Positions 13,006 to 57,205 of a stretch of DNA of 57,363 nucleotides are shown here, one piece after another. Each line of letters opens with the position of its first letter. The first letter of the stretch is position 1. Below the pieces are notes generated by a model. It was not told where the DNA came from. It saw nothing but the letters and a program-made list of their open reading frames with translations, and made no database searches. Source of the DNA: Verrucomicrobiota bacterium (GTDB lineage: Bacteria > Verrucomicrobiota > Verrucomicrobiia > Verrucomicrobiales > DEV007); the NCBI GenBank assembly GCA_030625775.1, contig DAOUQC010000021.1, positions 1-57,363 of the forward strand, read 5' to 3'. The translations under genes were made by a program, and so were the position numbers.

Positions 13006-14727
13006 ATGGCAAGCTTACATGAAATGGTGGCAAACGTTGAAGCCATGCCCGATAATTGGGATGCACGATTGAATTTGGCTCAAGCTTATAAGGGGCTGGG
13101 AATGACCGACGAAGCCTTGATAGCCTTGCGAGGCAGTCCAATGGATCCAATGACCATGGAGCAGTCCCGCTTGGTGAGCGAGCTCCGCTTGGAGCTTGAT
13201 CCCGATGGGAGGCAGAATATGAGCAAACCAGCGCATCCTGTTACGGGCATAGTAGTGGAAATACAGGAACCAGAAGGGGAAGCGGTCGCTGTAGCGACTG
13301 TTGTTGGAGAAAAAAATGAGGAAGAGGTTTTGTTGGCAGTTGAGATTGTCGAAGACGGTTCAGAGAGTGCACTGGTAATTCCAGCGGAATGGGATGAGAA
13401 AGGAGATGCTCGAGCCATCGTAATGGCAGGAGAAGTGCATGGGGAAGCGATAAAGGTACACGAAAAGGAAAGTGATGCGGCTCAGAAGGCTTCTGCATTG
13501 ACGGTAGCGATTCTGGTGCATGTGGGGATCGCTCTCTTACTTGGACTCGTGGTGATGACAATGCCCCCTCCCAATCCGCCTCAAATTGTGGCAACCTCTT
13601 ACACTGAAGAAGATGCGGAAGATATCGAGGATGTAAAGATTCAGAAAATAGCGAACGCACAGGCGGCGAGTGCTGCATCAAAGCCGACTTTTGCGATCAG
13701 TTCGATGGCTTCGTCACCGATTGCGATTCCCGAGTTTGACGAAACCCAGAGTGTGGATGTGACCCTCGGAATGACTGCTCAGAATGTGGGTATGGACATG
13801 AGCTTTGACGATGGCAAGGGAGACACATCAGAGGTTAAATTTTTTGGGATTCGGGCTTCGGGCAATCGAATTGTATTCATTATCGAGGCGTCCCGCTATA
13901 TGTTGACTGATCAAAAAGGAGGGATTCCCGCTTACAACAAGGTCAAGGACGAGATCGCACAGATGATGGCGGGCCTGAACCGGCAGACTGCTTTTAACCT
14001 CATTATATACGACGGAAAAAGAGTGGCAACCTATCAGGATGAATTGGTGGCTGCAACCCCATCCAACATCCGTCTGGCAATTGAGTGGTTTTCTCCGATC
14101 AACAAAAAATTTGAAAATATAGGCCTTCAAAAAGGTTATTCTTCCAAACCTGTGCAGTCTGGGATCGAGCCATTTGAGGTTAATGATCTGACCAATTATA
14201 TTAAAGCGTCGCAATTGGCACTGGAAATGGATGTCAGTACGATTTTTCTGCTGAGTAACGGTTGGGGGTGGCACGGGAAGCCCATGGAGAAGCTTGAGTA
14301 TGAAAAATTCATGAAAAAAGCGAAGTGGAAGGAGAAGGATGAAATCGCATGGAGGGAAAGTGTCAAGAAAGCCCAAGCCTGGTTGAAACAGGAAAATGCA
14401 AATCGCTTAAAAAAGAGAATCCCCAGAAAGGTAGTGGTCAGTTTGAGCAGAATTATCAGTCAGACTTCACCTGGGTTGAGGCATAAGCCCGGCCCTCCGG
14501 GATACACAATGGAGGATGTAGAGGATCAGTTGAAAAACGCTGTATCTGTTTATTATCGGACGAAAAGTAAGCCCAGACCGAAATTTAACGTGGTTTGGTT
14601 TGTCGGGGAAGATGAAAATCCGAGTGTTAGGGTCGAGGAGCATTTGAAGCATCAGACCAAGAGGAACCGGGGTAAGTTAAAAATTTTGAAAGGCATGGCA
14701 GGCTTGAAAAATGTCACGGGAGGCTGA
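13006..14727 (+). CDS. Membrane protein with TPR-like N-terminus and VWA-like C-terminal domain
   Basis: 573 residues, not a recognised named family. Seen: a TPR-like helix pair at residues 1-45 (DNWDARLNLAQAYKGLGMTDEALIAL); an acidic linker; one transmembrane helix at about residues 165-185 (VAILVHVGIALLLGLVVMTM) followed by PPPNPPQ; and a VWA-like fold from about residue 280 (GNRIVFIIEASRYML ... TAFNLIIYDGK ... STIFLLSNGWG). The MIDAS DxSxS is altered to EASRY, so metal binding is doubtful. The rest is Lys-rich. It may be an envelope scaffold or a component of a motility or secretion apparatus, but no function can be assigned. Its DNA is AT-richer than that of its neighbours. Confidence 0.75.
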   Translation: MASLHEMVANVEAMPDNWDARLNLAQAYKGLGMTDEALIALRGSPMDPMTMEQSRLVSELRLELDPDGRQNMSKPAHPVTGIVVEIQEPEGEAVAVATVVGEKNEEEVLLAVEIVEDGSESALVIPAEWDEKGDARAIVMAGEVHGEAIKVHEKESDAAQKASALTVAILVHVGIALLLGLVVMTMPPPNPPQIVATSYTEEDAEDIEDVKIQKIANAQAASAASKPTFAISSMASSPIAIPEFDETQSVDVTLGMTAQNVGMDMSFDDGKGDTSEVKFFGIRASGNRIVFIIEASRYMLTDQKGGIPAYNKVKDEIAQMMAGLNRQTAFNLIIYDGKRVATYQDELVAATPSNIRLAIEWFSPINKKFENIGLQKGYSSKPVQSGIEPFEVNDLTNYIKASQLALEMDVSTIFLLSNGWGWHGKPMEKLEYEKFMKKAKWKEKDEIAWRESVKKAQAWLKQENANRLKKRIPRKVVVSLSRIISQTSPGLRHKPGPPGYTMEDVEDQLKNAVSVYYRTKSKPRPKFNVVWFVGEDENPSVRVEEHLKHQTKRNRGKLKILKGMAGLKNVTGG

Positions 14728-26235: not shown

Positions 26236-29200
26236 TCATTTTGATTTCTGCCGTTTGGCGACTATGGCTTCGACTCCGCTGTACAAAGTGGGCAGGAGCA
26301 GAAGAGTAAGCAAAGTCGAAGAGACCGTTCCGCCGATCACCACCACGGCCAGTGGTTTCTGAATTTCTGATCCCGGACCCGTGGCGAGTAGCAGTGGAAC
26401 CAGACCTAGAACCGTCAGGATGGCGGTCATGAGAACCGGTCGCAAGCGATTGCTTGCTCCCCTTTGGGTAGCCGTATCAATGTCGAGGCCTTCAAGCTCC
26501 CGCAGTTGATTGAAATGGTTGACCATCACCACGCCGTTCATGATCGCCAGACCAATCAGAGCGACAAAGCCGATTGAAGCAGGAACCGAAAGATAAAAAC
26601 CGGAAAAATACAGGGTCAGGATACCCCCTACTAAAGCAAAGGGAATGTTCAACAGGATCAATAAAGCCTGCCGGACGGTACCGAAGGTCAGGAACAGAAT
26701 GATAAATATGATGAACAACGATACCGGGACCACGACTTGCAAGCGGGCGGAGGCACGGGCCTGGTTTTCAAACTGACCGCCGTAGTCGATGAAATAACCA
26801 GGTGGCAGATCAATTTTTTCCTCAATGAGCTGCCGCAGCTCCATGACAAAACCCACCACATCACGATTCTGCACATTGGCCTCCAGAACCACCACCCGAT
26901 TCCCGTCCTCGCGATCAATCTGGGTTGGACCATCGACTTCAGTGATTTCCGTTACGTCGCCAAGGTAAACGGGGTGCCCGTCAGCAGTGGTGAGACGAAG
27001 ATCACGGATTGCGTCTGCTGAGCTGCGCTGGGACTTGGGGTAGCGCACCAGTACCGGAATGCGTTTATTTCCTTCGATCACTTCCGTAACAACTCGCCCA
27101 CCGACCGCCTGGCTAACTAGGTTGTTAATTTGCTCCACGGTGATTCCCAGCCGGGCGGCCTCTGCATGCCGCATTCCAATATTAAGATATAGTTGCCCTT
27201 CAAGCGGTGTTCGTTGCACATCAATCGCTCCGGTCACCGTATTGACCAGGGTTTCAATCTCCTTGGCTTTCTGATCGAGAGTCGTCAGATCTTCGCCGGA
27301 GAGTTTGATCGCCACCGCCGAGGTAACTCCCGATATCATTTCAGATACACGCATGTCAATCGGTTGGGTGAAACCGTAGATCACCCCTGGAAAGGTATCG
27401 AGCACCTTGCGAATCTTGTTTTGCAAACCCTCGACACTAACACCGCCCCACTCTGCTCGCGGCTTGGTGATAAGGAAAACATCACTTTCATTGAGGCCCA
27501 TGGGGTCGAGTCGAAGCTCGTCGGAGCCAAGGCGAGAAACCAGGCCGGTGATTTCGGGCAATTCGAGCAGTTTTTGTTCTATCTGGTTATCAATTTCGAT
27601 CGAATGCTCCAGTGAAATCGTCGGCAGCTTTTCAAACTGCACCAGAAGGGTGCCTTCGTCGAGGAAGGGCAGGAACTCACTGCCAATCCGGGTGCCGAGC
27701 AAGAGGCTGAGCAATACGATGACCGTTCCCGTAATAATCGAAAGCTTTCTTCGCCGCATGACGAGATTTAACAAGGGGCTGTATGCAGCTTGCAGAGCGC
27801 GAACCGCTATGTTGTCCTTCTTGTTGGAAGGTTTCATCAGCAACGAAGCAAAAACCGGGATGACGGTCAGACTGAGGATCAATGATACCAACAGTGAAAT
27901 GCCGATCGTCTGAGCAAGCGGGCGGAACAGTTTTCCTTCAATACCAGTGAGCGCCAGAATTGGAAACAAGGAAACCGCAATGATCAAAACGCCGGCAAAA
28001 ATAGGCGGTGCAACTTCTTTGGCTGCATGCAGCACGATTTTCGGTTTGGAATGTTTGTGATCCTGGTGCAATTCCCGGTGAATATTTTCAACCATGACCA
28101 CCGCAGAATCGACCAAAATCCCAACCGCTATCGCAATCCCTCCCAAGGACATCAAGTTGGCCGTTAGGCCTGCAAAATGCATCGCAACAAAGGTTCCCAG
28201 CACCGTGAGAGGCAGGATGATTCCAACTGAAAGTGCTGAACGCAAATTGCCCAAGAAGAGGATCAAAACGATGAGCACCAATACCACAGCCTGGATCAGC
28301 GCATTGCGCACGGTGGTAACGGAAGCGGTGATGAGTTCCGAACGGTCATAAAAAGGAACGATGCGAACTCCGTCTGGCAATGCCGGTTTGATGTCTTCCA
28401 GTGCAGCCTTGACCGCCTCAACGGTTTTTCTTCCGTTGGCCCCACGGCGATTAAGCACCAGACCCTCGACCGCTTCACCCTTGCCGTGCGCCGTTACGGC
28501 ACCGTAGCGGGTGAGCGCACCGAGTTTTACGTCGGCAAGATCCGTAACGAGAATGGGACGCTGACCCCGGACAGCCACTGAAGTGGCCGCAATATCCTCA
28601 AGTGTGCGCAGTTGCCCGATAGTGGTGACCAATAGCACTTCGTCATTGCGCACAAAACGATCCCCGCCGGCATTAGCGTTATTTTTTTTCAAGGCAGAGC
28701 TCAGATCATCTATCGTGAGACCATAAGCTTGAAGCGCTTCCGGCCGCGGTATCACATGAAAACTACGGACCTCCCCGCCAAGGGCATTGACGTCGGCCAC
28801 CCCGCTGACTGATAACAAGCGCGGGCGAATGATCCAGTCGAGCACCGAACGCAGTTCCATATTGCTGTATCCGTCACCTTCCACCAGGAACATATAAATA
28901 TCAGAGAGTGGCATCGTGATGGGAGCAAGCCCCCCTTCAACCCCTTCGGGCAATCCCGCCAACACCTGGGTAATGCGTTCCGAGACCTGTTGCCGGGCCC
29001 AGTACATATCCGTACCGTCGGCAAAATCGATCGTGATCACCGAGAGAGCATACTTGGTGATAGAACGCAGAACGGTCTGTTTGGGGATACCCCGGACCTC
29101 GATTTCCAAAGGCCGGGTGATGCGCTGCTCGACTTCGGTGGGGGTCATACCTGCCGCCTTCACGATGACTTGCACCTGGGTATTTGATATATCCGGGAAA

Positions 29201-29313
29201 GCATCGATGGGCAGTTCCTTCCACGAATAAATCCCCCCAACAGTTAGAACCCCGGCAAAAATGACAAACAAAAAACGTTGTGCAAGGGCAAATTGTATTA
29301 ATTTGGAAAGCAT
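26236..29313 (-). CDS. CusA/CzcA-type heavy-metal RND efflux permease
   Basis: 1025 residues, normal for the HME-RND family. Seen: N-terminal TM then WKELPIDAFPDISNTQVQVIVKAAGMTPTEVEQRITRPLE, the porter-domain hallmark of CusA/CzcA; TM4 GGIAIAVGILVDSAVVMVENIHRELHQ with the proton-relay Asp and Glu; and a second half ending in GLAIMNGVVMVNHFN and LLLPTLYS. It sits in the inner membrane and exports metal cations (Cu/Ag or Co/Zn/Cd) using the proton gradient. It is the third gene of the set TolC (30594), adaptor (29359), permease. Metal specificity was not resolved; the conserved Met residues of CusA were not checked. Confidence 0.93.
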   Translation of the reverse strand: MLSKLIQFALAQRFLFVIFAGVLTVGGIYSWKELPIDAFPDISNTQVQVIVKAAGMTPTEVEQRITRPLEIEVRGIPKQTVLRSITKYALSVITIDFADGTDMYWARQQVSERITQVLAGLPEGVEGGLAPITMPLSDIYMFLVEGDGYSNMELRSVLDWIIRPRLLSVSGVADVNALGGEVRSFHVIPRPEALQAYGLTIDDLSSALKKNNANAGGDRFVRNDEVLLVTTIGQLRTLEDIAATSVAVRGQRPILVTDLADVKLGALTRYGAVTAHGKGEAVEGLVLNRRGANGRKTVEAVKAALEDIKPALPDGVRIVPFYDRSELITASVTTVRNALIQAVVLVLIVLILFLGNLRSALSVGIILPLTVLGTFVAMHFAGLTANLMSLGGIAIAVGILVDSAVVMVENIHRELHQDHKHSKPKIVLHAAKEVAPPIFAGVLIIAVSLFPILALTGIEGKLFRPLAQTIGISLLVSLILSLTVIPVFASLLMKPSNKKDNIAVRALQAAYSPLLNLVMRRRKLSIITGTVIVLLSLLLGTRIGSEFLPFLDEGTLLVQFEKLPTISLEHSIEIDNQIEQKLLELPEITGLVSRLGSDELRLDPMGLNESDVFLITKPRAEWGGVSVEGLQNKIRKVLDTFPGVIYGFTQPIDMRVSEMISGVTSAVAIKLSGEDLTTLDQKAKEIETLVNTVTGAIDVQRTPLEGQLYLNIGMRHAEAARLGITVEQINNLVSQAVGGRVVTEVIEGNKRIPVLVRYPKSQRSSADAIRDLRLTTADGHPVYLGDVTEITEVDGPTQIDREDGNRVVVLEANVQNRDVVGFVMELRQLIEEKIDLPPGYFIDYGGQFENQARASARLQVVVPVSLFIIFIILFLTFGTVRQALLILLNIPFALVGGILTLYFSGFYLSVPASIGFVALIGLAIMNGVVMVNHFNQLRELEGLDIDTATQRGASNRLRPVLMTAILTVLGLVPLLLATGPGSEIQKPLAVVVIGGTVSSTLLTLLLLPTLYSGVEAIVAKRQKSK

Positions 29314-35642: not shown

Positions 35643-36974
35643 ATGTTTCTACGTTTCATAGCAATAATCCTTCTGTCGGTTGTAGCACATAGCCTGGCGG
35701 CCAAAGACAATGAAAGCGCTCTGTGGACTTTGGACCGTTCTCTATTGCAAGTTCGTACTGGCAATCCCGATGCTCGCTCAGCTGCCATAAGGATAGAGAA
35801 AGCCCGCGCTCAATTAGCCGAAGCCCGGGCCCAGCTCTGGCCAAAAATATTTGCTGAAACCGGTTATGCCGCCACGGACAATCCGGTCAATGCCTTCATG
35901 ATGCAGCTCAACCAACGCCAATTTGGATTTGGCTCGAATTTCAACGATCCCGATACCACGGACAACTGGGCCAGTGAGCTGCGGGTCGAATACCTGTTTT
36001 ATACCGGGGGAGCCCGGAGGGCCGCTATCGATGGAGCCATGTTGGGAATCGAGGCAAGTGAACACGAAAAAAGCGCCACTCTGGCGCAGCTGGAGCTAGA
36101 GGTCGCCCGCGCTTGGTTCCAAATTTACCAAAGCGGAGAAATCGTGATCGCAGCCAAGGCCTCCTTGGATAATCAACAATCCAATCTCAAACTGGCCCGC
36201 AATCGCGTCGATGCCGCTACAGCCCTGCAAACAGCCGTGTTGGATATAGAAACCAAGGTAGCAGAAGCTGAAGCCAATCTGGCCTATGCCAGCAATTCCG
36301 GGCAAATAGCGACGGCCTTTCTTAAATCATTGCTGGGACTCGAAGATTCCGCTTCCTTTCGGGTGGCGAGCGGATTGACCAACATAGAGGAACCCCGGGG
36401 CAAAGGCGTGGAGCGGCCGGAATTGATGGCACTGAAAAAAAGAGAATTACAGGCCCAGACGGGCATTGACCAGGCTAAAGCCGAACGTATGCCGGTGGTA
36501 TCCGGTTTTGCTTCGGGACGACACGATGAAGGTTTCATTGAACGCGGAGCCGGAGACAGCTGGATGGTGGGATTGATGGTGCGCTTGAAAGTCTGGGGAG
36601 GGGGAGAAACCAAGGCAAAAATAGAAAGTGCCCGGAAAAATGCTGAACTGCTTGGCGAAGAGCAACGCAAACAAAATCTGGCGATCACCTTGCAAGTCAA
36701 AACAGCCCGCCTGAATCTGAATACAGCACGCAAGCGCATCATTCTGGCCAACAAAGGCATCCGAAGTGCTGAGGAAAGTTTGCAACTGACACGCCAGCGA
36801 TTCAAAGAAGGGCTGGCATTGTCTGCCCAGTTGATCGATGGCGAAGCAGCCCTGACGGGCGCCAGGGTAAGATTGGCGAAAGCCCGGGCGGAAGAACAGC
36901 TCGCTCTGGCATCCCTGCGCTGTGCTTTGGGTTTACCGATTCGTAACCTCAGCAAAGAAAGTTCATCGAAATGA
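35643..36974 (+). CDS. TolC-family outer-membrane efflux protein
   Basis: 443 residues with a clean signal peptide (FLRFIAIILLSVVAHSLAA). Two OEP repeats: ARSAAIRIEKARAQLAEARAQLWPKIFAETGYAATDNPVNAFM in the first and VGLMVRLKVWGGGETKAKIESARKNAELL in the second, with the closing GLALSAQLIDGEAALTGARVRLAKARAEEQLALASLRCALG. It is not of the CzcC LFNRNQG type found at 30594, so the two systems are unlike each other. Its stop overlaps the adaptor start by ATGA. It forms the outer-membrane tunnel of the second RND pump. Confidence 0.9.
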   Translation: MFLRFIAIILLSVVAHSLAAKDNESALWTLDRSLLQVRTGNPDARSAAIRIEKARAQLAEARAQLWPKIFAETGYAATDNPVNAFMMQLNQRQFGFGSNFNDPDTTDNWASELRVEYLFYTGGARRAAIDGAMLGIEASEHEKSATLAQLELEVARAWFQIYQSGEIVIAAKASLDNQQSNLKLARNRVDAATALQTAVLDIETKVAEAEANLAYASNSGQIATAFLKSLLGLEDSASFRVASGLTNIEEPRGKGVERPELMALKKRELQAQTGIDQAKAERMPVVSGFASGRHDEGFIERGAGDSWMVGLMVRLKVWGGGETKAKIESARKNAELLGEEQRKQNLAITLQVKTARLNLNTARKRIILANKGIRSAEESLQLTRQRFKEGLALSAQLIDGEAALTGARVRLAKARAEEQLALASLRCALGLPIRNLSKESSSK

Positions 36975-38098
36975 TAGCTCCTGACTCAAAATTTAAAATC
37001 ATCACTGTTCCTGCATTGCTGCTTTCGCTAGCATGTCTGACAATTTCCTGCAAACCGCAGCACGAGGCGACGTTTGCGCTTGAGTCAAGCCAGCCGCCGG
37101 TCGCTGTCCAAACGGTGATTTTGCAGAGTAAGCAAGTAGCGGTTTTCGAGGAAGTCGTAGGTACAGTGCGACCGCACATGGAAGCCCGGGTCTCGGCAAA
37201 AGTGACTGGGCGCATTCTTCGTATGTCTGCTGTTCCTGGCATGAAGGTTAAAAAGGGTGCGGTGCTTGCAGAAATTGAAGTGGAGGAAATGAAAGCATCA
37301 TTGGAGCGAGCACAGGCAGCAAAAGAGAATGCTGACAGTGATCTGCAGCGTTACAGCAAATTGTTGTCTGCCGGTGCTGCCACGCAGGCTGAATTTGATG
37401 CCGTGCAATCACGTCAGCGCATGGCCATCGCTACCGTAAAAGAAACTGAAGTGATGATCGGCCATGCCAGTGTGCAGGTACCTTTTGATGGCACCATTAC
37501 ACAAAAATATATGGATATCGGTGATTTGGCCTCCCCTCAACGCCCCCTGTTCAGTGTGGAAGACTCCGAACTGTTACGCTTAGAGATTCATGTAGCAGAA
37601 ACCCTGGCCAATCAAGTTGAGCTGGGGCAGAAATTCCGGGTTGTCGTCGATGGCGCCGTCGCTGATCTTATTGGTAAGGTCGCAGAAATTTCGCCATCAG
37701 CTGATACCGGTAGCCGGACTTTTTTGGTGAAACTCAATCTGCAAAAAAATGAAGCCCTACGGGCAGGCCAGTTTGGCCGGGCGTTCCTGCCACGAAGCAA
37801 GCGCAAAGCCCTGAAGATTCCTGTAACCGCCCTCATTCAACGTGGACAGATGGACTACGTTTTTGTTGTTTCCAATGACTCTGCTCACTTGCGCATCGTC
37901 CGTACCAATGATGAGAAAGCCCACTCGAGTGCTGATTCGGGATCGAAGAGTGAAGACAAACTAAGGGAGATTCTAGCAGGACTCGAAGACGGAGAGACCG
38001 TAGTGCTGTCACCTCCACCGGAACTGCGTGATGGTCAGCGAGTAATCACCGGCAAGTCACCAGCTGCAGCCAAAGACTCAGCTCAAAAAACCAAATGA
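36971..38098 (+). CDS. RND periplasmic adaptor lipoprotein
   Basis: 375 residues. N-terminus is a lipoprotein signal ([14 protein letters not shown], Cys 27). Lipoyl halves: [42 protein letters not shown] and [26 protein letters not shown]; a hairpin about residues 100-150; a barrel with [18 protein letters not shown] and [12 protein letters not shown]. It couples the permease encoded next to the TolC before it. Both gene junctions are ATGA overlaps, indicating tight translational coupling of the three pump parts. Confidence 0.92.
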
Positions 38099-41000
38099 GC
38101 GACCAACACCCAACTGAAGCGCACGGCATCGCCGGGCGACTAGCAGAAGGCTTTATCAATTCAAAGCTGACACCGCTATTGATCCTGACCTCCATTTTGC
38201 TCGGGATTTTTGCCATCATCAATCTGCCACGCGAAGAGGAGCCACAGATCAAGGTGCCGATGATCGATGTGATGGTCGCCATGCCTGGGGCTTCGGCTAA
38301 AGAAATCGAGGAAAGAGTGACGACACCGATGGAACAACTGCTGTGGGAAATCCCAGGGGTTGAGTATGTTTACAGCACCTCCAGTCCTGGTCAGAGTCTG
38401 GTGATCGTCCGATTTAAAGTGGGCGAAGACGAACAGTCTGCGCTGGTGAGACTGAATCAACAGCTACAATCTAATTATGACCGCATTCCCCAAGGCGTTT
38501 CCTTTCCCCTGATCAAGTCCAAGTCGATCGACGATGTGCCCATCCTTGCACTTACCTTACACAGTCAGCGCTACGACCCGATTACCCTGAGACGCCTGGC
38601 TGCTGAATTGGAAGGAACGATCAAAGCCATTCCCGACGTTGCACAAACAGAATTGATCGGCGGACAAAAGCGCGTGTTTCGCGCTTTGATTGATCCCGCC
38701 AAGTTGGCTGCCCGAAATCTCAGCCTGGCAGGGATTGTCCCGGTCCTGCAACAAGCCAATCGCCAATATCGCGCCGGCGAAGTGACTGCTCATAATCGGG
38801 AGGTGCTGATTGAGAGCGGTGCTTTTTTGCATTCTACCAGGGAAGCAGGAGATGTGGTGCTGGGGGCTTTTAATGGCAAACCCATTTACTTGCGTGAAGT
38901 TGCCGAGGTCACTGATGGTGGTGATGATCCAACTAGTTATGTACTTTACGGTGCGGGAGCAGGTGCCCACAGCGGAGTGAACGCAACACCAGACGGTGAA
39001 GAGAATGCCGTCACTATCACCGTCGCCAAACGCCCCGGAACGAATGCTGTCACTCTGTCTGAAACCGTACTGACCAAAGTGGAGGCCATGAAGGGGCGGG
39101 TGATTCCCGATGAGGTTGGAGTTGCAATCACACGGCACTATGGGGAAACGGCAGCTGAAAAATCGAACGAGCTTCTCTACCACATGGGCATCGCCGTGTT
39201 CAGCGTCACCCTGTTGATCTTTTTGATGTTGGGCTGGAGGGAGTCCTTTGTCGTTGCGATTGCCATTCCCTCGACCCTGGCACTGACGCTGCTGACTTTT
39301 TACCTCTACGGATTCACCCTGAATCGCATCACACTTTTTGCCCTGATTTTCTCGATCGGTATTCTAGTGGATGACGCTATTGTGGTCGTGGAGAACATTG
39401 TACGCCACCAGCGCTTACCAGAAAACAAAGACAAATCGATCACTTTGATTGCTTTGGAAGCAGTCAGTGAAGTAGGCAATCCAACTGTTCTAGCCACCTG
39501 GGCGGTGATCGCAGCCATACTTCCGATGGCCTTTGTCGGTGGTTTAATGGGCCCCTATATGCGCCCCATTCCAATTGGAGCCAGTGCAGCGATGATCTTT
39601 TCATTGCTGATCGCTTTTATCGTCACCCCTTGGGCGGCAGTTCGTTTTCTCAAGGGGAAAAAAACAGCAGATCATGGATCTGCCAGTCATGAAAAAGAAG
39701 GCTGGATGACTCGTGCTTATCGCCGTTGGATGACTTTTCTTCTGGGCAAACCTTCCCACCAATGGGGTTTTCTTATCGTCGTAGTCTTGCTACTGCTCGG
39801 CAGCATGGGATTGGTCGGCATCGGTTATGTAAAAGTCAAAATGCTGCCTTTTGATAACAAAAGCGAGTTTCAGGTCATTCTCGATATGCCCGAGGGCAGC
39901 GCCTTGGAACAAACCACTCGAGTCGCCCGCGAAATGGCCGCGGTGATAGCCAAGGAGCCTGAAGTGGTTAATTACCAGGTTTACGCAGGCACGGCATCAC
40001 CCTTTAATTTTAATGGCTTGGTTCGCCATTATTTCATGCGCCGGGGGGCGAATGTTGCTGATATTCAGGTCAATCTACTACCCAAACACGAACGCACGGC
40101 TTCAAGCCACGACATCGCCAAAAGGGTACGCCCAAAACTTGAGCAGATCACCAAACGATATGATGCCTCTCTAGCGGTAGCCGAAGTGCCCCCCGGGCCG
40201 CCAGTGTTGCAGACCTTGGTTGCCGAAGTCTATGGCCATGATCGCGAGCAACGCGAAGCCCTGGCAAGCAAGATCAAGAGCATCTTCGAATCGGTCGATG
40301 GAGTCGTAGACATCGATTGGTATGGCGAGCATGATCAGAAACGCCTGCGTTTTAGAATTGATAAAGAAAAAGCAGCATTGAACGGGATCACCGCTGAAAC
40401 CATTTCACAGACCCTGCGTATTGCTCTGGATGGACTTGACGTGGAGCTGGTTCATTTACCACGCGAAAAAGAACCTGTCATGCTAAGACTCAAATTACCG
40501 CGCCAAGACCGCACGGATGCACAGCAATTGCTTGGCCTTCGAGTACGTTCCGGTGATGCCAACGCGCTACCCGAGCAAGGAGGGCAAACGGCAGCAGCAC
40601 CGCCCCTGGTACCTTTGGGTGAATTGGTAACTGTAGAGGAAGATGTCATCGACAAGAGTATCTATCACAAGAACCTCATGCCAGTCACCTACATCATCGG
40701 AGATGTGGCGGGTGTCAAAGAAAGTCCGGTTTACGCCATACTTGAAATGAATGAAAAAATTGCCGAACTCGATGCACGGAAATTTGGTGCTTCGGATGCA
40801 AAACTGCAAGTGCTCAACGCAAAAATGCCCTTTCTCGACATGGAACCCTCGATGAAGTGGGATGGAGAGTGGCATATCACCATCGAAGTGTTCCGTGATC
40901 TGGGCCTGGCATTTGCCGTGGTATTGATCTTGATCTATGTGCTCATGGTCGGCTGGTTCAAGTCCTTCATTACCCCCTTGATCGTCATGGTCGCCATTCC

Positions 41001-41376
41001 CTTTTCTTTGATCGGCATTATGCCCGCCCACGGAATGATGGGTGCATTTTTCTCCGCCACCTCTATGATCGGATTCATGGCAGGCGGAGGAATTGTTATT
41101 CGCAACTCCATCATCCTGGTCGACTTCATCCACTTACGCGTGTCTCAAGGCATGCCACTGCACGATGCTGTGATTGACGCGGGCGCCGTTCGCTTCCGGC
41201 CGATGCTGCTCACCGCCATGGCCGTTGTGGTCGGGGCTTCAGTGATTCTGATGGATCCGATCTTCCAAGGCCTAGCCATTGCTCTGATGGCAGGTGAAAT
41301 TGCCTCCCTGCTCATCAGCCGCATCGCCGTACCGGTGATTTATTATATGGTCTACCGCCACGCAGATGACGCTTAA
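38095..41376 (+). CDS. RND efflux permease (AcrB/HAE-like)
   Basis: 1093 residues, 12 TM segments with two large periplasmic loops. Seen: [59 protein letters not shown]4 [21 protein letters not shown] with the proton-relay Asp pair as in AcrB; and a final [19 protein letters not shown]. The lack of the CusA-type TM4 sequence and the DD motif place it outside the metal class. It probably exports organic or toxic compounds rather than cations. It is controlled together with the TolC and adaptor genes, presumably by the ArsR repressor divergent at 35082. Confidence 0.92.
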
Positions 41377-53291: not shown

Positions 53292-54233
53292 CTACTGCTT
53301 TTTCTGCCTTGATTTAAAATTCCGCTGGTGAAACTGCATCAACTCAAGGCCTCGTTTTCCATACCACCGTAACGCCGAGTGATCGACTCCTTCAGCAATC
53401 AGCTTCTCGTGGGGTACATTCAATTCATCCAGGTAATCAGAGAATTTGAGATTGAACTCATAATTGAATCCCTTGCTGCCCACCCACAATAAAATAGGCA
53501 GCTCCGGCCGGTCCTTCCTCCCGGCATATTTCTCAGCGAGATCCCAAGTATTGTATCCCAGGGGAAGAAAACGAACGGCCTTATTCTCCCATCCTTCATT
53601 CTCCTGAATACGTTTTTCCGGTTCATAGCCTGAGCCCCCGGGTGCCGCTGAGGCGAATAACTCGGGGTAGGCAAACATGATCCGTGTGGTTCCACGCCCC
53701 CCCTGGCTAAAACCCTCAATCGCCCTGCCCGAAGCTTTACCCGTGGTCCGCCATTTTTTATCAATGTGCGGAATCAATTCTTTCACAAAAACATCTTCCC
53801 CCAGACCCTGTTTTTTTTCCGGATAATTATACCAGCTCATCGGTCCACCATTCGGGAAAACATAAATGGTCGGATTGATGTCACCCTTTTTGATCGCTTG
53901 ATCGACAAAAGATGCCAGGCGAATGCTTTTGCTTTCAGAGCCGGGTCGACCGCCGTGAAGATGGTATACCACGGGATAATGCTGGTCTGAGCCGCTGTAC
54001 CCAGGCGGCAGGTAGATGTAGTAACCAATCTCTATTCCCATTGAAGGACTCTGGAAAGTCACGTGTCTGAGCCCCTTTGGCAGGGATAATTTTTCCAACT
54101 TTGCTTCGGCAAGAGGGCTCACCCATGAAAACGGAGCTGCCGTTTTCCGGGGTTTTTTTGTAACCTTCCCCTGCTGGGCTGTGAGGTTTCCGAATGAGAG
54201 AAAAAAGATGGAAAGAATGATGCAAGTCCTCAT
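53292..54233 (-). CDS. Secreted alpha/beta-hydrolase esterase (esterase D / feruloyl-esterase-like)
   Basis: 313 residues from ATG 54233, where a signal peptide starts (TCIILSIFFLSFGNLTAQ); the longer frame to 54269 adds 12 residues. It matches PF00756-type esterases: GYYIYLPPGYSGSDQHYPVVYHLHGGRPG (oxyanion loop), IYVFPNGGPMSWYN, FVKELIPHIDKKW, nucleophile Ser in GFSQGGRGTTRIM, and catalytic His in AEGVDHSALRWYG. Such enzymes remove acetyl or feruloyl groups from polysaccharides or act on other esters. It fits the glycan-degradation theme of the window. It is convergent with ppc, 67 bases apart. Confidence 0.88.
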   Translation of the reverse strand: MRTCIILSIFFLSFGNLTAQQGKVTKKPRKTAAPFSWVSPLAEAKLEKLSLPKGLRHVTFQSPSMGIEIGYYIYLPPGYSGSDQHYPVVYHLHGGRPGSESKSIRLASFVDQAIKKGDINPTIYVFPNGGPMSWYNYPEKKQGLGEDVFVKELIPHIDKKWRTTGKASGRAIEGFSQGGRGTTRIMFAYPELFASAAPGGSGYEPEKRIQENEGWENKAVRFLPLGYNTWDLAEKYAGRKDRPELPILLWVGSKGFNYEFNLKFSDYLDELNVPHEKLIAEGVDHSALRWYGKRGLELMQFHQRNFKSRQKKQ

Positions 54234-54464
54234 GACTACCACTGATACAGGTAAACAGAAGCTTACCAAAGAGAATCTCCCGCCCCAGACAGCACCATGG
54301 CTCTGATCAGCGACATTTTAGGATGTGCTGGTCTCTGTAGCATCCTGACCCTGCTGGCCACCTGCAACATTTGATCCTACTTCGTGCCAGTGCTTTCGGG
54401 AGAAGAGCAGTTCACCGATCTTGCTCCTCTATGTAAAACGATGTTCCGGCTTCTATTCCTTATC

Positions 54465-55226
54465 CTACTTCCGCAGCCACACTGTCGTCTGTGAGGTGCT
54501 GAGTTGAAATTTTCTTGCATGATCTCGAATCAAAAAGGGCAATTCGATCTCTCGTTTCAGCTCAAAGGTTTCATCCAGACTGGCGTGAACAAACTCCAGG
54601 GTACTGCCTTCTGGCTGATTCTCTTTCGGCGTGAACTCTTCCGACCAGCTGCATGGAGTTGCCAGGATCAATTGCCCTCCCGCTTTTACCAATTCAGGCA
54701 AGCGATACAAAAAACGACGAGGCTCCGGCAGGCGGCATAATAAGTTAGCCGCATGAACAATATCAAACTGCCCTAAGGTGCTGGATAAGTTCATCGCATC
54801 GCCAAGCTCAAAATTCACTCGTTCGGGATTCACTGCCTCGGGGCAGGTAATCCTTATCTCTGTTTCTAACTGGCCCTCGTCATAACGCCGCACAGACACC
54901 TCCCGATCTGTTTGCAACAGTCTGGCAGCATCAATGAAGGCCTGCGAATAATCTATCGCCAGCACTTCTGCACACAGGCGGGACAACTCAAAGCTCGATC
55001 GCCCCACCGCACAACCCACATCCAAAGCCCGCAACTCGTCCTGGTCTTTTTCCTCGTAGCGATCAAGCATCAAGGTGCTCCAAACGGTCGCTTCCGGAAA
55101 ATGCAAACCTTCGACCTCTTCTTCTCCATGAAATACCGATGCGCCTTCCAAAATCTGCGCAGGTATGCCGTAGTGAAACAGCAGATACTGATCGAGCAAA
55201 CGCTGACTCTCGTATCCGGAACTCAT
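54465..55226 (-). CDS. Stand-alone OvoA-C-like (4-mercaptohistidine N1) methyltransferase
   Basis: 253 residues. It opens with YESQRLLDQYLLFHYGIP, very like the start of the OvoA C-terminal methyltransferase domain (family TIGR04345, from memory). SAM motif I is ALDVGCAVGRSSFELSR (about 66-82), followed by VLAIDYSQAFIDAA, FELGDAMNLSS, and FDIVHAANLLCRLPEPRRFLYRLPELVKAGGQLILATPCSW. OvoA normally carries an N-terminal sulfoxide synthase; here only the methyltransferase is present. Next to it, 5 bases apart, is the M29-like gene at 55232, so the two are co-transcribed. Substrate is a 4-mercaptohistidine-type compound only by homology. Confidence 0.78.
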   Translation of the reverse strand: MSSGYESQRLLDQYLLFHYGIPAQILEGASVFHGEEEVEGLHFPEATVWSTLMLDRYEEKDQDELRALDVGCAVGRSSFELSRLCAEVLAIDYSQAFIDAARLLQTDREVSVRRYDEGQLETEIRITCPEAVNPERVNFELGDAMNLSSTLGQFDIVHAANLLCRLPEPRRFLYRLPELVKAGGQLILATPCSWSEEFTPKENQPEGSTLEFVHASLDETFELKREIELPFLIRDHARKFQLSTSQTTVWLRK

Positions 55227-55231
55227 AACAC

Positions 55232-56419
55232 TCAGCTCACGCCCAGGGCTTGCAGCAAATATTCACAGGGGCGGTAGTGTTCTATCAGAATCTCCTCCTG
55301 ATCTCCACATTTCATCCGCACTTGGGCAAGGTCGATGCCCGGCGTTTTGTGAGGCGCAAACAGAATATCGTCGTGGGTCGAATTTTCGTGTTTCTTGAAC
55401 ATGCTTGGCTCGATGTCACCGCCAAGATGATCGTCCCGACCAGTCGCGATATGGCAGGTGCCGAGGATTTTTTCATCCTGGATATCGGCTCTGGAAACCG
55501 GTAGCACCTGGGTTCCAAACCCCAACTCCCCAAGCGTTCCCGTCATCGGGTCATCTTTCAATCGAGCATTCTGCTCATCGATCGTCGCCTGGTTTCCTGA
55601 AATCAAAGTCGCACAAATGATATCACGATCCTTCACTTCCATCAGCCCCAGGGTGCCGTCCTCATACTTCATGGGAAACTGCCCGTGAGCATCCACAGGC
55701 ACATAATAAACTTCACCCGCCGGAAGATTGGCAACATCGGGTTCATCCCCCTGACTCAATCCGTGTGATTTCTGAGCCTCCTGCCTGCTTAATATAATAG
55801 TGAGCGTCAATTTCTGTCCGTCTTCGAGTATGAAATCAATTTCGATCTCATCCGCACCGGTCATTGCCAGTCGCACATTTTCCGTGTCCGCGCTAACCAC
55901 ATTATAATCCACCGATAAACCGCTGCCCAGAATGATGTCATTCACTCCGTGCAAAGTTGCCCCACGAAATCCAAAGTCCTTGCATTTTGCTGTCAGCGGA
56001 GCCGTCGCTGAGAAATTCGAAATGCACAGAACGATGTCGTAATTGGTATAAATATCCTTGTCCAGGCTCAGCTCCCTGCCCTCCGCATCCCAACAGGCAT
56101 CTGCAAGATCCAGGTTGGATCCACCGCTTGCTTTGAAGGCATACATCTCGCCCCCCGTCATCCCCAGCTCACCCATCACGCCATCCTTCAAACCGAGATA
56201 AAATTTTTCATGTGCCTTTTTTTGTACCTCATGTCCATCCGCCTGCAGGAATCCAAAACCCTTCATCAGACTCATGTCCTCCAGATCGGTCAGTATGCAG
56301 ATCCGGCAGCCCTCAGTCGGATCGAAAACCGTCCCCAGCAGTCGGGCCAGACTGAACTTGGGAAAAATTCGTTTCTCCGGATCAAAAATAGTTTCGCGGT
56401 CTAATTGGGCTATGCTCAT
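55232..56419 (-). CDS. M29-aminopeptidase-like protein paired with the OvoA-C-like methyltransferase
   Basis: 395 residues. I recall no standard name. The C-terminal half resembles M29 (AmpS/AmpT) metallopeptidases: LPAGEVYYVPVDAHG (metal-ligand Glu), TLGELGFGTQV (second Glu), ILGTCHIATGRDDHLGGD (His), and STHDDILFAP (HxD-like). The N-terminal half (DRETIFDPEKRIFPKF, LLGTVFDPTEGCRICILTDL) is distinct. Motif residues suggest metal binding, but spacing was not checked and activity could be lost. It is translated just before the methyltransferase (5-base gap), implying one pathway. It may trim or open a histidine-derived thiol conjugate; this is speculation. Confidence 0.55.
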   Translation of the reverse strand: MSIAQLDRETIFDPEKRIFPKFSLARLLGTVFDPTEGCRICILTDLEDMSLMKGFGFLQADGHEVQKKAHEKFYLGLKDGVMGELGMTGGEMYAFKASGGSNLDLADACWDAEGRELSLDKDIYTNYDIVLCISNFSATAPLTAKCKDFGFRGATLHGVNDIILGSGLSVDYNVVSADTENVRLAMTGADEIEIDFILEDGQKLTLTIILSRQEAQKSHGLSQGDEPDVANLPAGEVYYVPVDAHGQFPMKYEDGTLGLMEVKDRDIICATLISGNQATIDEQNARLKDDPMTGTLGELGFGTQVLPVSRADIQDEKILGTCHIATGRDDHLGGDIEPSMFKKHENSTHDDILFAPHKTPGIDLAQVRMKCGDQEEILIEHYRPCEYLLQALGVS

Positions 56420-56515: not shown

Positions 56516-57205
56516 ATGCAAAATTCCAAAATCGTTCTGATCACCGGTTGTTCACGCGGCCTCGGTCGTGCCATGGTCGATGGTTTTATTGCCATGGGAG
56601 ACACGACCGTTGTCGGCTGTGCGCGAAGCGAAGAAGCCATCGAAGAACTGCGCACTCAATACCCCGCACCCCATAGCTTCCAGGCTCTTGATGTTCGCGA
56701 CTCATCTGCGGTGGAGGAATTTGCCCGCACCATCATTGGCAAAACCGGCGCCCCCGATCTACTGATCAACAACGCAGCCATCATCAACCGCAACGCCCCC
56801 CTGTGGGAAATTACCGACGAGGAGTTCTCGGATATGACTGCCATCAATATCAACGGCGTTGCCAACATGATCCGCCATTTTGTGCCGGCCATGATCGACA
56901 ATGGCACAGGGGTTATCGTCAATCTCTCTTCCGGCTGGGGTCGTTCGACCGCAGCCGAGGTCGCTCCTTATTGCGCCACCAAATATGCCATTGAAGGCCT
57001 GACCGCTGCTCTAGCCCAGGAACTGCCCACGGGCCTGGCCGCAATCGCCCTCAATCCTGGCATCATCGATACCGACATGTTGCGCAGCACCTTCGGCGAG
57101 GGATCCTCCGCCTATCCAGATGCGGACGAATGGGCAAAAAAGGCCGTTCCCTACCTGGCGAAGCTCAAGTCCAAGGATAATGGCCGGGCGCTCACTGCAC
57201 CGTGA
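56516..57205 (+). CDS. SDR family oxidoreductase
   Basis: 229 residues, classical SDR. Cofactor loop ITGCSRGLGRAMVDGF, NNAAIINR, Ser in NLSSGWGRS and catalytic Tyr/Lys in YCATKYAIEGL, then LNPGIIDTDML. All catalytic residues are present, in contrast to the SDR at 10828. The C-terminus is short for the family, ending KDNGRALTAP. It lies 96 bases from the divergent M29-like gene and 63 bases before a sugar isomerase start on the same strand, so probably belongs to a sugar or polyol pathway. Substrate unknown. Confidence 0.88.
   Translation: MQNSKIVLITGCSRGLGRAMVDGFIAMGDTTVVGCARSEEAIEELRTQYPAPHSFQALDVRDSSAVEEFARTIIGKTGAPDLLINNAAIINRNAPLWEITDEEFSDMTAININGVANMIRHFVPAMIDNGTGVIVNLSSGWGRSTAAEVAPYCATKYAIEGLTAALAQELPTGLAAIALNPGIIDTDMLRSTFGEGSSAYPDADEWAKKAVPYLAKLKSKDNGRALTAP

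Follow-up and report, generated by a model that had tools for sequence, protein, structure and literature searches.

A two-gene unit of Verrucomicrobiota as a candidate OvoA-independent route to 5-thiohistidine

What does a methyltransferase of the ovothiol type do in a genome in which no OvoA is detected? The question is raised by the end of a 57,363-nucleotide stretch of DNA from a Verrucomicrobiota bacterium (GenBank assembly GCA_030625775.1, contig DAOUQC010000021.1, our contig C35; the assembly holds 4.88 Mb in 158 contigs and is 96% complete), referred to here at its full length as the window. Two minus-strand genes follow one another there: gene B, whose product matches no described family, and gene M, which encodes a stand-alone relative of the C-terminal methyltransferase half of OvoA. 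Producers of the antioxidant ovothiol are usually sought by their ovoA gene. We propose, giving the proposal about an even chance, that B and M constitute an OvoA-independent 5-thiohistidine route, in which B forms 5-thiohistidine and M methylates it to ovothiol A or an analogue.

A first-pass annotation of the window, made from its letters alone, had described a two-gene unit with a metalloprotein in front and a methyltransferase five bases behind it; both open reading frames are as described, both start with ATG, and the short gap is consistent with a single transcript. The likening of the methyltransferase to the C-terminal half of OvoA also stands. M begins with MSSG followed by YESQRLLDQYLLFHYG and matches the model TIGR04345 (ovoA_Cterm, putative 4-mercaptohistidine N1-methyltransferase) over its full length (residues 5-251 on 1-241 of 242; 165.2 bits, E 1.8e-48). 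This score is about 5 bits short of the curated cut-off of 170 bits, a threshold that splits M's own clade (226 bits for L188, 167.3 bits for L259) and is exceeded in 91 of 190 related genomes, in one of them by a fused OvoA. Among proteins of solved structure the best matches are OvsM (9bxh, 126.6 bits), OvoM (9bxl, 122 bits) and OvoA (8khq, 109.4 bits), and the next reaches only 22.4 bits. From their PDB names, we take OvoM and OvsM to be stand-alone N-methyltransferases of 5-thiohistidine and 5-selenohistidine, respectively. M resembles them in standing alone: as first described, it is not fused to a sulfoxide-synthase half, and the genome contains no match to TIGR04344 (5-histidylcysteine sulfoxide synthase) over the cut-off of 400 bits, the best scorer (47.6 bits) being a protein with a PF03781 sulfatase-modifying-factor domain.

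In a methyltransferase tree of 62 sequences, for which every second stand-alone row was taken, the stand-alone proteins form one clade (support 100/96) and the OvoA C-terminal halves together with OvoM another (100/98), with OvsM attached between them. We also compared 46 alignment columns, selected as common to intact OvoA C-terminal halves and stand-alone M proteins, so that the comparison is descriptive and favours those sets; 87 stand-alone M rows depart from them at 1.9 positions on average and at 8 at most. Full-length alignment and shared positions thus point to M being, by descent, a member of the OvoA-C/OvoM/OvsM family. The N-methyl-bacillithiol synthase NmbA (PMC12719100) was also considered for M and set aside, NmbA itself not being among the sequences compared.

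B and M occur together across the phylum to which our surveys were confined, and many of whose genomes are fragmentary. In a phylum-wide set of 288 genomes of at least 85% completeness, a B profile finds 56. In 44 of them E lies below 1e-140; the other 12 match weakly (best E 6e-30 to 2e-6) and are taken as other members of the superfamily. TIGR04345 is matched in 57 of the 288, namely in the same 44 genomes, each with one stand-alone protein and no TIGR04344, and in 13 with a fused OvoA. A stand-alone M is present in 44 of 44 B genomes versus 3 of the 244 others (Fisher p 8e-49, uncorrected for relatedness; because the genomes are related, p-values such as this one overstate the association). 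No genome of this set has B without M, and the three with M and no B (G336, G386 and G391) all carry OvoA. The matched stretches of the 44 pairs lie at most 150 bases apart on one strand in 24, at most 600 bases in 6 more and at most 3.5 kb in another 4 (34 of 44), while the remaining ten pairs are farther apart on the same contig (3) or on different contigs (7). Since the two genes agree in their presence even in these ten, their co-occurrence is not due to linkage alone.

The pairing recurs in two further samples. Among the 190 relatives, B is matched in 159 (two matches of this set, in G051 and G052, being weak), TIGR04345 in 159, and both, by our reading, in 155; in genus g19 (family f2, genomes of 2.2-3.5 Mb, probably Akkermansia) neither is found in any listed member. 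Among 123 genomes of the order that includes the OvoA carrier G386, B occurs in 49: in 48 of the 52 genomes that have only a stand-alone M, and in G466 as a fragment at a contig end.

The distribution of OvoA adds a second pattern. The first-pass annotation had suggested a survey of the pair in genomes with and without genes for the OvoA N-terminal half; such genomes number 21 in our material (1 of the 190, 13 of the 288 and 11 of the 123, four being common to the last two sets). B and M, together in 44 of the 288 genomes, never co-occur with OvoA in the genomes surveyed: B is absent from all 13 OvoA carriers of the 288 set and from all 21 overall, where a renewed search at E <= 1 returned only a 34-position match (E 0.62, in G505). 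M, however, may remain beside OvoA, and where it does so depends on the state of OvoA's own methyltransferase half. The methyltransferase half is degenerate in every one of the 11 OvoAs from the G386 order, with 13-19 of the 46 conserved positions altered, versus 0-3 in 11 intact OvoAs (from ten genomes and PDB 8khq) and 2-5 in three stand-alone M rows from OvoA genomes that took no part in the choice of columns. In place of the motif NLIDRL one reads, for example, NLLERS, CLLERS, TSLEKA or DIIDRI, and SPYTW is replaced by STNDW, CTNEW or SNYDW. The sulfoxide-synthase halves of the degenerate proteins score against TIGR04344 like the others (655-695 versus 647-692 bits). A stand-alone M is kept in 10 of the 11 genomes with a degenerate OvoA and in 0 of the 10 with an intact one (Fisher p 3e-5). 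The exception is G302 (L210/L258), in which a stand-alone M was looked for without success; its OvoA is spread over two frames (561 and 428 aa), through decay of the pathway or else an error in sequencing.

These ten M proteins all group within the clade that the B-linked M proteins form, and in several places: beside family f14, beside f7, and with those of G021, G034 and G221. Constraining them to a single clade is rejected (AU p 0.0014). In G003, by comparison, neither B nor a stand-alone M is found and OvoA has an intact methyltransferase half, while B was matched, twice weakly, in 30 of the 33 genomes searched in its genus, g2. The simplest reading of these distributions is that the phylum has had B and M for a long time. 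Several B+M lineages would then have acquired an OvoA whose methyltransferase half was failing, losing B and retaining M, whereas the OvoA that entered G003, its methyltransferase half intact, would have displaced both genes.

M is thus retained in two settings, beside B and beside OvoAs that appear to have a spent methyltransferase half, and this points to one substrate in both. According to PMC12631010, the OvoA pathway passes through free 5-thiohistidine, and 5-thiohistidine is, from the pattern of co-occurrence, most likely what M methylates. If so, B stands in the place of the sulfur-inserting half of OvoA. B would convert histidine to 5-thiohistidine or to its direct precursor, doing the job of the sulfoxide-synthase half without being homologous to it, and M would then methylate an imidazole nitrogen to yield ovothiol A or a close analogue. 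The first-pass annotation had suggested that ovothiol or another methylated histidine thiol is made by a split or a variant route. The second form of this idea survives, as the variant route is favoured by the pairing, by the absence of B from the 21 OvoA genomes and by the retention of M beside degenerate OvoAs; a split OvoA it is not, because B has no detected relation to the N-terminal half, even though M is related to the C-terminal half along its whole length and shares nearly all of the 46 positions. PMC12631010 also reports gene pairs for a 5-thiohistidine N-acetyltransferase, which likewise extend 5-thiohistidine metabolism and were recognised from their genomic surroundings; the acetyltransferase acts beside an OvoA, whereas B and M occur without one.

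The pair might instead make a different imidazole or histidine compound, such as a selenium analogue, a compound modified elsewhere on the ring or a thiol that lacks the free amino acid moiety, which the product of OvoA could replace. M does form its own clade, paired with B and apart from OvoA-C and OvoM, with the 5-selenohistidine enzyme OvsM, its best PDB match, on the branch between. In addition, two positions that are acidic in most OvoA C-terminal halves differ in most B-linked M proteins: E/D16 is replaced by leucine (aspartate in OvsM; the OvoM match does not show this position), and D164, which belongs to the NLIDRL motif, by cysteine (acidic in both OvoM and OvsM). These changes lend the idea some substance, but C164 is also found in 9 of the 10 M proteins kept beside OvoA, where 5-thiohistidine is the expected substrate, which tempers the argument, and the 46 positions are common to M and intact OvoA C-terminal halves. 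We regard a different product as unlikely, though the likeliest of the alternatives to a 5-thiohistidine route.

What kind of protein, then, is B? It matches no Pfam, NCBIfam or PDB sequence, a profile of 28 B sequences finds nothing among PDB sequences at E <= 10, and none of the titles and abstract beginnings retrieved from open-access literature describes B or the B-M pair. An AlphaFold model, built on the narrow alignment of 28 orthologues (mean pLDDT 87.8), is predicted to share its fold most closely with NicX, a 2,5-dihydroxypyridine dioxygenase (PDB 7cn3 and 7cup; Foldseek E 7.1e-14; Z 25.4 over 307 residues, 3.8 Å, 13% identity). The M29 aminopeptidases PepS, AmpS and AmpT come next (Z 17.1-18.1 over 294-297 residues), followed by the crocagin proteins CgnE (Z 13.0) and CgnB (Z 11.5). 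When B is aligned with its sister clade and with L253, a genuine member of M29 (PF02073 263.5 bits), residues E236, E298, H323, H349 and D351 of B fall on those of M29 enzymes, and all five are invariant in 166 of 166 B rows, in which certain genomes are represented twice, and in 9 of 9 sister-clade rows.

The first-pass annotation had called B an M29-like metalloprotein on the motifs AGEV, GELGFGT and CHIATGRDDH. The motifs are present, and the predicted fold and metal residues bear the likeness out; the identity with M29 peptidases themselves was dropped, as PF02073 gives no match at E <= 1 and the tyrosine of the EEHYHD motif, which PMC7023490 gives for M29 enzymes, is gone, no tyrosine lying between H323 and H349 in any of the 166 rows. 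Nor does B have the iron ligands of NicX, named in PMC7910607 as His265, Ser302, His318 and Asp320. The protein L251, whose match to NicX among PDB sequences has an E of 3.2e-10, bridges E298 of B to H265 and A325 to S302, so that the first two ligand places are taken by other residues, B having E236 and H323 besides. At best two of the four ligands agree, and the correspondence of H349 and D351 to H318 and D320 follows from the HxD motif only, because the alignment does not place the HxD of L251 in B's columns. By the defining residues of each group B belongs with neither, and it looks like a metalloenzyme of the NicX/M29 fold that is distinct from both. According to PMC7910607, the NicX version of this fold supports oxygen chemistry on a nitrogen heterocycle.

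A persulfide-carrying cysteine in B was considered and dropped: C322, beside H323, and other cysteines had looked inviting in a smaller set of 28 B sequences, and position 322 proved to be cysteine in 130 of the 166 rows. Residue 222 is serine in the B of the window and cysteine in 162 of 166 rows. One further B gene (G443:C1:170715-171872) contains a single in-frame TAA in the search output. The B of the window is 93% identical to that of L090, from a Verrucomicrobiota record, and the records of Haloferula rosea (L118) and Luteolibacter marinus (L117) likewise contain B with an M close by.

If B were a metallo-aminopeptidase or an unrelated housekeeping enzyme, it could be a chance neighbour of a thiol methyltransferase. 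The fold shared with PepS, AmpS and AmpT would suit such a role. Against it stand the agreement of B and M in presence over long distances and across contigs, the failure of B to match PF02073, its missing M29 tyrosine, and the absence of B from every OvoA genome, although ten of these retain an M of the B-linked clade; we consider a chance association very improbable.

A subtler alternative is that B acts elsewhere in the pathway, for instance by hydrolytic release of 5-thiohistidine from a conjugate or peptide, with sulfur added by an unlinked enzyme. The retained E/E/H/H/D residues are those of M29 hydrolases, the pairing with M would look identical, and lineage-bound neighbours of B (a dehydrogenase and a bifunctional-nuclease gene) leave room for further pathway genes. 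This explanation nevertheless still requires another, unknown, sulfur-inserting enzyme, and no third phylum-wide gene was found: besides B and M, no family occurs in more than 4 of 21 regions compared (19 B loci, the OvoA locus of G003 and the window). In G190, G257 and G420, three B+M genomes that are 99% complete, nothing matches the EgtB model TIGR03440 at E <= 1e-5, so that a partner of the OvoA/EgtB kind is not seen in them, there being no positive control that strong; the search used this model and none for SenA or OvsA. Its cut-off of 360 bits is exceeded in none of 18 B+M genomes and in none of 14 control genomes either, and in G042 a single match over nearly the whole length reaches 267.6 bits. 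We hold a role for B elsewhere in the pathway to be rather improbable.

Several observations weigh against an OvoA-independent 5-thiohistidine route. The pairing is imperfect: B occurs without M in four of the 190 relatives (G072, G100, G119 and G180; completeness 53-86%), and of four with TIGR04345 and no B, one is G003 with its fused OvoA, while G068 (77% complete), G071 (63%) and G183 (91%, 760 contigs) have M; most of these seven mismatched genomes are incomplete. In the 123-genome set, G479, G490 and G499, of one genus, as well as G489, have M and neither B nor OvoA over the cut-off. The mutual exclusion of B and OvoA is, taken alone, non-significant in the 288 set (p 0.11) and reaches p 0.0027 in the 123 set, both uncorrected for relatedness. 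Nine further genomes with an intact OvoA, outside both orders, bear no sign of ever having had B. Moreover, the degenerate OvoAs group together (SH-aLRT 82) in a tree of OvoA N-terminal halves that includes one wrong-frame row (L204), omits L210 and was used for this grouping only, so that on the OvoA side the replacement may go back to one event that then spread. The altered positions 16 and 164 of B-linked M could mean another substrate. The metal residues of B are of the hydrolase type and not those of NicX, and it has no invariant cysteine to carry sulfur. We know of no precedent for C-S bond formation on the NicX/M29 fold. Finally, the chemistry of the pair is inferred, from the substrate of M to the reaction, metal site, sulfur donor and any oxygen use of B and the identity of the product.

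A broader proposal, to which we give somewhat less than an even chance, is that B represents the first of a new class of C-S (or C-Se) bond-forming metalloenzymes on the NicX/M29 fold, independent of the OvoA/EgtB/SenA superfamily, by which Verrucomicrobiota-type bacteria, including those with streamlined genomes of 1.3-1.7 Mb, make ovothiol, and that OvoA has displaced this route several times. Were B to replace the sulfur-inserting half of OvoA, a large part of a phylum would have been overlooked as ovothiol makers, a family without a Pfam entry would be a candidate for a new way to put sulfur on histidine, and the NicX/M29 fold would have acquired a third chemistry. The features of the locus are collected in Table 1.

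Table 1. Coordinates in the window of the gene pair, its divergent neighbour and the predicted metal-site codons of gene B.
Feature	Position	Strand	Remarks
Gene B	55232..56419	-	First gene of the pair; 395-aa protein of predicted NicX/M29 fold, putative metalloprotein; no described family matched
Gene M	54465..55226	-	253-aa stand-alone methyltransferase; kin of OvoA C-terminal half, OvoM and OvsM
B-M gap, 5 bases	55227..55231	-	Spacing consistent with a single transcript
Short-chain dehydrogenase gene	56516..57205	+	PF00106; divergent from B; lineage-bound neighbour
Glu236 of B	55712..55714	-	Predicted metal ligand; first E of the M29-type set; aligned with M29
Glu298 of B	55526..55528	-	Predicted metal ligand; aligned with M29; through L251 on NicX His265
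His323 of B	55451..55453	-	Predicted metal ligand; aligned with M29
His349 of B	55373..55375	-	Predicted metal ligand; aligned with M29 (L253); putative counterpart of NicX His318 by HxD motif
Asp351 of B	55367..55369	-	Predicted metal ligand; aligned with M29 (L253); putative counterpart of NicX Asp320 by HxD motif

The best 80 of 499 relatives of B all come from records titled Verrucomicrobiota or from genera that belong to this phylum. B was found on no phage and no viral contig searched, and on plasmids only as three weak half-length matches, two of them annotated as aminopeptidases. Its sister family (L243-L252, e.g. L244:853-1929 and L249:918-1994) consists of proteins of about 350-365 aa that are 23-28% identical to B in the seven compared and carry the motifs INLPSGE, AELGLGCN and HWAYGRSEHLGG. 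Two of them, scanned with PF02073, score 20.3 and 26.3, below the threshold of 27. The nine sister-clade regions share no neighbours and offer no clue to chemistry.

The genes around B were compared in a body of 211 B loci, which includes duplicates and in which many flanks are short. Orthologues of the dehydrogenase of the window (49-66% identity) are divergent from B in 20 other places, each doubly fetched sequence being counted once; the gene is possibly a further member of the pathway, or possibly shares a promoter region with B. In many f2-type loci, B is directly preceded on its own strand by a gene with a PF02577 bifunctional-nuclease domain (e.g. L081:7246-7710, L079:9274-9759 and L077:10000-10521). 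Both genes are absent near B in the remaining loci tested, and both are lineage-bound. In two genera of family f4, and only there, a fatty-acid-hydroxylase-family gene lies between B and M (L085:7936-11066 and L086:7546-10696).

Where M occurs without B, its surroundings vary. Family-3-type ABC transporter genes for a solute-binding protein, a permease and an ATPase come after the stand-alone M of G386 (L256:5120-8217), and the substrate of this transporter is possibly histidine or a thiohistidine; a family-3 solute-binding gene was seen in L073 and L256 only. In G489, which has neither B nor OvoA, M is followed by a BesB-like pyridoxal-phosphate enzyme of the Cys/Met metabolism family (L319:561-3006), of which no second copy occurs among the open reading frames of the compared loci. 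In genus g217 (L316-L318), where M mostly occurs without B, M belongs to a conserved block that also includes ribonuclease-like, FtsW/RodA-like and sugar-kinase-like genes, and a short protein that looks SelW-like and has a CxxC motif is encoded nearby, these names having been given by reading the sequences.

In the window itself, an esterase gene (53292-54269) lies downstream of M. Farther away are an open reading frame of 573 aa (13006-14727), which has no Pfam match at E <= 1e-5, and two genes for RND efflux pumps of the AcrB type (36971-41376 and 26236-29313), one of them preceded by a gene for an HlyD-type adaptor.

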